DNA from: Akanthomyces muscarius
Lineage: Eukaryota; Ascomycota; Sordariomycetes; Hypocreales; Cordycipitaceae
Direction of reading: 5' to 3'
Length of the DNA stretch: 64,000 bases
Assembly: GCF_028009165.1 (NCBI RefSeq)
Contig: NC_079244.1
Span: forward strand, 3,782,001 to 3,846,000
Shown here: positions 23,492 through 25,039 of the stretch, piece by piece
Position numbering within the stretch: the stretch's first letter is position 1
Layout of the letters: the number at the start of each line of letters is the position of its first letter
Position numbers and translations under genes: made by a program
Notes under the pieces: generated by a model
Seen by the model: the letters and a program-made list of their open reading frames with translations, nothing else
Database searches by the model: none
What the model was told of the DNA's origin: nothing

Positions 23492-24114
23492 CAGCCTCAG
23501 CGCAAGTTAACCCTCAGCAAGCGAAGCCTTGCGAGGCGCTTTAATTCCTGCCTGTCAATCTTTTACTATATAATTACACCTTTTGTATGCGTATCACCTA
23601 CAAAACGCCGCGAGAAAATAACACGTCCGCGGGGTAAAGGTCAGCGCAACGGCGGGGAAAAGCCGTGTCTCGGCAACGAGTGCATACGTCTGGAAAGCAG
23701 CACAGGCGATGGCGCACATGATAAACCTAAATATTGGATATAGGATATAATGTTGTAAATAATGATGAGCAAGCCTCAAATTCTATCATCGCAATACTCG
23801 GCTCCAGCGCGAAATTCTCGGACTGGGCACTGGTTTCGTCGCTGGTCGCAAAGTTGCCTCACGCGAGCAATAAGTAACCTCCACAGAATCGCATAAAACT
23901 ATAATGCAACAGTAGAATAGCATGAACCCCCTTGATGAGCTGGTTCCCTGCCGTATTCCTCATCTTCTGCGCCCACCACCGGCGGGGCGAGCCAGGGCGC
24001 AGCTCATGCAGTCCCGCACCCAAACGGGTCTTCACCGTAACATTCATAAGGGCTAATAAGAAACCCGCCGCCATCAGCTCCTCACAAGCTCATTCGAGCA
24101 AAAAGAGGTTACAT
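23492..24114. other. Intergenic region before the tRNA gene
   Basis: AT-rich spacer with the 3' UTR of the Zn2Cys6 gene and the 5' flank of the tRNA gene. No gene is seen. Confidence 0.5.
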
Positions 24115-24130
24115 GGTCTGGTGGTCTAGT

Positions 24131-24237
24131 GTAAGTAGCACTTCATCAGTCGCTTCAGCACTCAAGGCTCTTGGGCCGAGTGTCGGCTTCGCTCTGAAAT
24201 CATCACCACCCATGCATCAGCGGCTAACAATCATCAG
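24131..24237 (+). other. 107-nt GT-AG intron-like insert in the tRNA D-loop
   Basis: The insert begins GTAAGT, contains GCTAAC (24223-24228, branch-type A at 24227) and ends ATCAG ten bases later. These are the fungal spliceosomal intron consensus elements at normal spacing. Exact GT-AG excision rebuilds AGTGGTATGAT of the D-arm. A one-base shift of both ends gives the same product. It does not sit at the 37/38 position used by tRNA splicing endonuclease. Confidence 0.85.
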
Positions 24238-24257
24238 GGTATGATTCTCGCTTAGGG

Positions 24258-24276
24258 CTCACCCTGAGTACAATTC
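24258..24276 (+). other. Canonical tRNA intron after position 37
   Basis: Nineteen bases between G37 and T38. The CCCT at 24262-24265 can pair with AGGG in the anticodon loop, forming the usual anticodon-intron helix recognised by the nuclear tRNA splicing endonuclease. Confidence 0.85.
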
Positions 24277-24316
24277 TGCGAGAGGTCCCGGGTTCAATCC
24301 CCGGCCAGACCCTTCC

Positions 24317-24321
24317 TTTTT
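24317..24321 (+). terminator. RNA polymerase III terminator of the tRNA gene
   Basis: Five T residues start five bases after the mature 3' end, a normal Pol III stop. Confidence 0.8.
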
Positions 24322-25039
24322 GCCATTGGAGTCGATTGTGCAAGTTTGGATTGAAGTTTCTCTATTTTTTACGTGAGGTTGTGTCGTGTGGGTATGTGGA
24401 GAGGTTGTGCACGCCACAATACTTTTTGGGGTGGCGGAAAGGGCTGATGAAGACAAGCTAATGGTGTATCTCTGTCACCTACCCAGTAGTTGGTTAAGCC
24501 GCATTTAATTTCTGCGGAACGAGATTGGTCGCTCATCTGTGGCCCAGCACAAGCGCATGCGCAGTGAGTGGTTACCGCAGCGAGCTAATCGCAATGCGTT
24601 CCTCCTATTCCTGTTGGCTCTTGGTTCTCGATTTCGATAGTAAGTTTAGCAAATCGTGTGTTGCAAGCCGTCGGCTGAAATAGTCAATGAACCTGGGCTT
24701 TCGTCAAATACATTGCAAGCCTTGAGTGTTGAATGGCGACCAGGTGGCAGAGGCACTTAGACGCCACCAGTAAATTAGCTTTTTCGTATGTCAGCCTCTG
24801 AAGTCAACTCAATTCACAATGCCACCAAGAGAAACATATATAAACATGTTCATCCTCTCTGTGATGTTTGTCTTTCATTCTTCCGGTTCCCCATAATACA
24901 TCCCAAAACAAAAGTCGTCTCGATATCTACCAAGCAACTCGCAACCGATACTACACAGTTCGCTACATTTCCCCTTTGCGAGTATTTCGGCCCAGTACCG
25001 CACTCACAACTTTCTCATATGAACTAAACTTCATGCAAT
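24322..25039. other. Intergenic region with promoter of the Thr-rich secreted protein gene
   Basis: No gene is seen. A TATA box lies near the right end and marks the promoter of the gene at 25040. Confidence 0.5.
24837..24844 (+). promoter_or_regulatory. TATA box of the Thr-rich secreted protein gene
   Basis: TATATAAA about 200 nt upstream of the ATG at 25040, preceded by an AT-rich stretch. This is a good core-promoter candidate for a regulated gene. Confidence 0.45.

Follow-up and report, generated by a model that had tools for sequence, protein, structure and literature searches.

The window, a 64,000-nucleotide stretch of contig C4 of the Akanthomyces muscarius genome (36.2 Mb, 12 contigs), contains a tRNA-Pro(AGG) gene that is interrupted twice (Table 1). 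The original prediction described a 107-nt insert at 24131–24237 with the signals GTAAGT, GCTAAC, and ATCAG, lying between D-loop positions 16 and 18, and held that its removal, together with that of a 19-nt canonical intron, yields a tRNA-Pro(AGG) in which every stem pairs. Direct reading of the sequence bears out the insert and its signals; the branch A is the 11th base from the end, and nine bases follow the GCTAAC motif. The placement in the D-loop stands as well: the edges of the insert were set by two uninterrupted Pro(AGG) paralogs (L002 and L003) alone, with the splice motifs left out of account, and carry a one-base ambiguity (a G is both the first base of the insert and the first base after it). 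ARAGORN finds nothing in the unspliced stretch and, once the insert is removed, reports a 72-base tRNA-Pro(agg) containing a 19-nt intron. In mature sequence, both paralogs agree with the interrupted gene at all 71 bases compared and also end in the same C, while their 37/38 introns, of 21 and 22 nt, differ from its own. With its stems intact and the mature sequence of its paralogs, the gene does not resemble the clearly decayed copy that the original prediction had named as a reason to abandon its reading. By eye, CCCT in the 19-nt intron could pair with AGGG at the anticodon.

Table 1. Parts of the interrupted tRNA-Pro(AGG) gene (positions in the window) and further interrupted tRNA genes of the same genome (contig:position)
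Feature	Position	Strand	Remarks
tRNA-Pro(AGG) gene	24115..24312	+	198 bp including both introns, 72-nt mature; L002 and L003 agree in mature sequence
Exon 1 (acceptor 5' strand, D-stem 5' strand, D-loop up to position 16), GGTCTGGTGGTCTAGT	24115..24130	+	
A box (TGGTCTAGT plus G of donor GT)	24122..24131	+	Donor T in place of usual second G
Spliceosomal-type intron (GT-AG, U2-like), 107 nt	24131..24237	+	D-loop, between positions 16 and 18
Donor GTAAGT	24131..24136	+	Sequence
Branch site GCTAAC, branch A at 24227	24223..24228	+	Sequence
Acceptor CAG	24235..24237	+	Sequence
Exon 2 (remaining D-arm, anticodon stem 5' strand, anticodon AGG), GGTATGATTCTCGCTTAGGG	24238..24257	+	ARAGORN
Canonical tRNA intron, 19 nt, at 37/38	24258..24276	+	ARAGORN i(37,19)
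Exon 3 (anticodon stem 3' strand, variable loop, T-arm, acceptor 3' strand, discriminator base)	24277..24312	+	ARAGORN
B box GGTTCAATCCC, intact	24291..24301	+	Sequence
T5 run, Pol III terminator-like	24317..24321	+	Sequence
Ser(AGA)	C1:319785		GT-AG insert in D-loop
Ser(AGA)	C1:2633382		GT-AG insert in D-loop
Ser(AGA)_3	C1:2624205		Insert signals GTAAGT, ACTAAT, TAG; found by search with joined Ser(AGA) exons
Ser(TGA)	C1:4173930		GT-AG insert in D-loop, plus 10-nt 37/38 intron
Ser(CGA)	C11:925552		GT-AG insert in D-loop, plus 10-nt 37/38 intron
Leu(AAG)	about C6:1517785-1517796	-	GT-AG insert in D-loop, plus 15-nt 37/38 intron; anticodon by ARAGORN
Arg(TCT)	L070 1430-1566 = C1:4276642-4276778 (pattern match C1:4276713)		GTGCGT...GCTAAC...TAG insert at 31/32

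The combination of signals in the Pro insert is rare at this length. A GTAAGT start, an RCTRAC near the end, and a YAG end coincide in 2 of 525,794 sliding 107-mers from both strands of the window and loci L002–L066, and both are the Pro insert, which is counted twice (in the window and in its own locus, L036). When five donor variants are pooled, 3 of the 525,794 qualify, two of them again the Pro insert and the third unread. When the insert was used as a query, as the original prediction had proposed, no second copy came up at E ≤ 10 anywhere in the 36.2 Mb (the search skipped very common words), and by eye there is no target-site duplication beyond the one ambiguous base. The window has no Rfam match at gathering scores; a permissive scan of 24000–24420 gave two weak snoRNA matches on the opposite strand. 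For the Pro insert, a group I or II intron was rejected, as Rfam matches neither. We also considered the lack of T runs in the insert as a sign of Pol III selection and discarded the idea, because the lack is not significant: 33% of shuffles are without TTT and 80% without TTTT, and TTTT is likewise missing from 12 of 17 good protein-gene introns.

The original prediction concerned one gene. Its central claim, that the D-loop carries a GT-AG insert in addition to the canonical intron, is supported there, and GT-AG inserts were seen in at least eight tRNA genes in all. At least seven further tRNA genes of the same genome carry GT-AG inserts, of 51–54 nt. Six of these were found through a genome-wide pattern of CTAAC followed by a B box within 36–66 bases, and the third Ser(AGA) gene through sequence match. 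The pattern gave 13 matches and its reversed control 23, and other patterns gave 3 versus 22, 13 versus 27, and 14 versus 14. As the counts do not exceed those of the controls, the evidence lies in the context of the matches and not in their number. Among the 13 matches, seven are the interrupted Pro, Ser (four), Leu, and Arg genes; two Glu genes were set aside, the CTAAC belonging to their own D-loop. Three others (L071, L074, and L078), with 3–4 of 5 T-stem pairs, are not tRNA genes as far as seen; nor is L076 (C5:1408329-1408408, minus strand), where CTAAC and TTGCAG stand ahead of a tRNA-like T-arm (5/5 pairs) and an acceptor 3' strand, and for which a simple look at 420 upstream bases found no acceptor 5' strand. 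The 3 and 13 matches of two further pattern searches contained no ARAGORN tRNA; one of them, L082 (C6:58225-58333, minus strand), a match to a long-spacing pattern, nevertheless has a fully paired T-stem. Two matches of the 14-match search were read, one being the third Ser(AGA) gene and the other an Arg gene whose D-loop itself contains CTAAT. Viral contigs searched with exon–donor junctions gave 0, 7, and 2 stretches, and all nine look phage or bacterial and not tRNA. A separate 138-nt tRNA match above the Rfam cutoff (C3:3658226-3658363) is longer than the other 53 and may hold a long intron.

The eight loci, on four contigs, have a common anatomy. The inserts measure 51, 52, 53, 53, 53, 54, 54, and 107 nt. 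Every donor fits GTRNGT at the exact 5' edge (GTAAGT in five genes, and GTGAGT, GTATGT, and GTGCGT in the others), and every acceptor fits YAG at the exact 3' edge (CAG in six, TAG in two). The branch sites are CTAAC in seven inserts, partly by construction since six genes were found by that pattern, and CTAAT in one, with the A at the 11th to 13th base from the end. These are the same signals as in 17 high-scoring protein-gene introns of the same genome, whose span of 48–195 nt includes the lengths of all the inserts; the 17 were taken from 69 candidates, a mixture of real and false introns, and were partly picked by splice signals. In standard numbering, by our own assignment, the inserts lie at 16/18 in Pro, 18/19 in Leu, 20a/21 in Ser, and 31/32 in Arg, so that six of the seven further inserts are in the D-loop and the Arg insert is in the anticodon stem. 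The use of four sites suggests separate insertions. The five Ser genes (L067, L068, L096, L069, and L079, on C1 and C11) share one site and have introns that are partly alike, and thus their inserts probably descend from a single old insertion. The likeness is seen around GCTCC and CCACCAT, which by eye might pair with exon 2. According to ARAGORN, four of the eight genes also contain 37/38 introns (Pro, Ser(TGA), Ser(CGA), and Leu(AAG)). In Arg(TCT), we read a short canonical intron after TCTA, where ARAGORN reports none. The Leu(AAG) gene has a second copy at C6:1521866 (plus strand), which is probably interrupted too, since the match to it starts at query base 18; the two Leu(AAG)-type genes lie about 4 kb apart on opposite strands.

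With the insert removed, ARAGORN reports the expected tRNA in all eight genes. On the unspliced sequences, with introns to 300 nt allowed, it reports nothing for five genes and a wrong isotype (Gly, Gly, and Pro) for three. At a 60-nt intron limit, it instead labels L070 as Pyl and recognizes L079 as Ser(cga) but puts a 54-nt intron in the wrong place, and thus its verdicts on unspliced genes depend on the settings. The signals expected for Pol III are largely in place. The A-box context is whole in seven of the eight interrupted genes, Leu using the G of the donor, and is short of one G in Pro; six of the genes were found through their B boxes. A run of at least four T lies within 30 nt downstream in 7/7 readable interrupted genes, as compared with 27/34 ordinary tRNA loci. 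Together, the A boxes and the T runs favor transcription by Pol III. The RNA-seq of the A. muscarius genome paper is described there as polyA-enriched (PMC10323777).

The five Ser genes, aligned unspliced, allow the fold to be examined across the insert. Over the 20 cloverleaf pairs scored, 100 of 100 cells hold standard pairs, versus 35–56% paired in slid controls, and seven pairs show double changes, versus 0–1 in the slid controls. Six of these seven, four in the acceptor stem and two in the D-stem, span the intron, pairing a base of exon 1 with one of exon 2. Among the three AGA genes, one has C-G at acceptor pair 6:67 and two have G-C. In shuffle statistics, which ignore the kinship among the Ser genes, the 13 double-change cells were reached by 0 of 500 shuffles; the number of double-change pairs, reached by 30 of 500, and that of further pair types, reached by 384 of 500, are not exceptional. 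The double changes between the AGA genes and the TGA and CGA genes might predate the intron, were the intron gained separately. For each of the ten possible pairings of the Ser genes, we also set intron divergence against exon divergence, excluding the 37/38 introns. The intron has changed more than the exons in two pairs, AGA 1 versus 2 (15/53 versus 4/81, p = 2.4e-4) and AGA 2 versus 3 (16/52 versus 3/81, p = 2e-5). The other eight pairs show no significant difference (p from 0.12 to 1), for example AGA 1 versus 3 (9/52 versus 7/81, p = 0.17) and TGA versus CGA (5/51 versus 5/81, p = 0.51).

Whether the cell has to remove the inserts depends on whether uninterrupted copies exist. Queries made of joined Ser exons found no uninterrupted Ser(UCN) gene in the A. 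muscarius genome, a search that diverged copies may escape. With the joined Ser(AGA) exons as query, there were three main matches, each covering bases 21–81 of 81, which is exon 2 only, together with a 17-base exon 1 piece. This query missed the TGA and CGA genes, and a copy at a similar distance would escape it too. The joined Ser(TGA) query matched Ser(TGA) and Ser(CGA), each over 21–91 of 91 (again exon 2 only), with exon 1 pieces. A tRNA family search, in which 63 of 781 candidates were scored, produced 54 matches, 24 of them unread, and an uninterrupted Ser(UCN) gene may be among those missed. The assembly is reported to hold 96.6% of a BUSCO set (PMC10323777). For Arg(TCT), the joined query returned only the two halves of the gene itself, with no close uninterrupted relative. 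The situation differs for Pro, with its two uninterrupted paralogs, and for Leu, where three neighboring Leu-like genes (C10:691693-692166, 78–89% identical, isotype unread) match contiguously across the D-loop and may be uninterrupted; the interrupted Pro and Leu genes thus need not be essential. Ser(UCN) codons, on the other hand, cannot go undecoded. If there is indeed no uninterrupted Ser(UCN) or Arg(TCT) gene, the cell must remove the inserts.

Taken together, these observations are best explained if the Pro gene, a nuclear tRNA gene, is interrupted by a spliceosomal intron of the U2 type, one of a set that comprises three Ser(AGA) genes, Ser(TGA), Ser(CGA), Leu(AAG) (one copy read and one presumed), Arg(TCT), and Pro(AGG). 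We put the probability of this reading, made from gene sequences, at roughly 0.85. It is carried by the splice signals and by the missing uninterrupted copies. The finding of at least seven more interrupted genes, with no uninterrupted Ser(UCN) gene detected, makes spliceosomal removal likelier than it would be for a lone dispensable copy. In such a pathway, Pol III would transcribe the interrupted genes from A and B boxes left whole or nearly whole and would stop at the T run. The U1 and U2 snRNPs would recognize GTAAGT and CTAAC in the precursor, and the spliceosome would take out the GT-AG intron as a lariat, after which the D-arm could fold. Where a 37/38 intron is present, it would be removed separately by the tRNA endonuclease and ligase, either before or after the spliceosomal step. 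The introns themselves could have arisen by insertion, for example by reverse splicing, at at least four sites (16/18, 18/19, 20a/21, and 31/32). There is, further, a good chance that all decoding of Ser UCN codons, and probably that of Arg AGA, depends on removal of spliceosomal introns from Pol III tRNA precursors. The spliceosome would then be an essential tRNA-processing enzyme, and some precursors would need two unrelated splicing machines.

Several other explanations deserve consideration. For the Pro gene taken by itself, a spliceosomal intron could have hit and killed a spare copy, leaving a recent pseudogene. The two uninterrupted paralogs make such a loss tolerable, there is slight damage to the A box, and the unspliced gene escapes ARAGORN. 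Nevertheless, we regard this as unlikely. The mature sequence has remained that of both paralogs despite the differing 37/38 introns, the terminator and B box are kept, and, with no source copy found, the insert does not appear to be a recent duplicate of another intron; moreover, for Ser(UCN), A. muscarius seems to depend on interrupted genes. A different possibility is that the tRNAs are cut from longer Pol II transcripts that are spliced like mRNA. Spliceosomal splicing normally accompanies Pol II, and the U6 and rRNA cases discussed below are exceptions to that linkage. But a Pol II origin is at odds with the A boxes, whole or nearly so in all eight genes, and with the T-run terminators, and it seems to us improbable.

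The inserts could also be non-canonical introns that the tRNA splicing endonuclease removes, as in archaea, Cyanidioschyzon, and nucleomorphs, in which case their GT-AG appearance would be incidental. Non-canonical D-loop introns are indeed described from some algae and archaea (PMC4090602, PMC3978253). In the Pro insert, a bulge-helix-bulge is absent, with 1/4 central pairs at either choice of boundary, compared with 3/4 for the canonical Pro intron under the same geometry. By itself this does not decide the matter, as many Guillardia nucleomorph introns are described as having no defined bulge-helix-bulge (PMC3978253). GTRNGT, CTAAY, and YAG, however, occur at suitable spacing in all eight inserts, although seven of them also fit the CTAAC search pattern, and removal by the endonuclease appears very improbable. 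Finally, we found no support for an assembly artifact or for self-splicing introns of group I or II. The Rfam scans of the window, the short inserts (51–107 nt), and the recurrence of one anatomy at eight loci on four contigs all speak against both, and neither need be considered seriously. We prefer spliceosomal introns in tRNA genes over each of these alternatives.

Provided that splicing proceeds as the sequences of these introns suggest, Pol III tRNA precursors would be routine substrates of the spliceosome, and A. muscarius would offer a natural system in which to learn how an uncapped, fast-folding RNA is recognized. The gain of introns could likewise be studied in RNAs of well-understood structure, and translation of particular codons would be tied to splicing capacity. 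In general, the gene sequences suggest that this insect-killing fungus needs the spliceosome for part of its tRNA set. Such genes may have been overlooked in other fungal genomes, because ARAGORN missed or misnamed the eight unspliced genes at one setting and misplaced one intron at another, and because the handling of non-canonical introns in tRNAscan-SE 2.0 is, in the account consulted, described for archaea (PMC8450103).

The original prediction knew of no described fungal case, and searches of the open-licence literature for spliceosomal or D-loop introns in tRNA genes likewise brought up no earlier report of such a case. A 1985 paper on tRNA-Ser(UGA) suppressor genes of Podospora reportedly noted "unexpected structural differences." Introner elements of fungi and algae are inserted introns and represent a route of intron gain. 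We rejected this identity for the Pro insert, because introners occur as many near-identical copies, whereas the Pro insert is single-copy and has at most the one ambiguous base of a target-site duplication. Canonical 37/38 introns are present in four of the eight interrupted A. muscarius genes as well, and the new inserts differ from them in lying elsewhere and in having spliceosomal signals. A 2026 review presents tRNA splicing as independent of the spliceosome (PMC13149111). Introns in the D-loop or D-arm have been described in tRNA genes of Cyanidioschyzon, nucleomorphs, and archaea (Crenarchaeota), with the splicing endonuclease discussed as the enzyme that removes them (PMC4090602, PMC3978253). 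Those introns resemble the A. muscarius inserts in lying outside 37/38, but many have a bulge-helix-bulge, in contrast to the donor, branch, and acceptor of the A. muscarius inserts and to the Pro insert, the only one checked for this structure.

Likenesses are also found among RNAs other than tRNA, where spliceosomal removal from transcripts not made by Pol II has precedents in an intron from the nuclear rDNA of lichen fungi and in the U6 intron of Schizosaccharomyces pombe. Yeast is reported to remove the lichen intron from transcripts made by Pol I (PMC8527467). What this intron shares with the A. muscarius inserts is a short length, spliceosomal signals, and a place in a structural RNA gene that Pol II would not transcribe. 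The lichen system, however, involves rRNA and Pol I, and the rRNA carries no additional intron for the tRNA endonuclease. In S. pombe and others, U6 is described as carrying an mRNA-type intron in a Pol III transcript, from which it is removed by splicing (PMC10484740), the same combination of polymerase and intron type that we infer from the genes for the A. muscarius tRNAs. The two cases differ in that U6 is itself a part of the spliceosome, with its intron near the catalytic nucleotides, and tRNAs are not; furthermore, in A. muscarius several tRNA families are affected, and most of the inserts lie in the D-loop.
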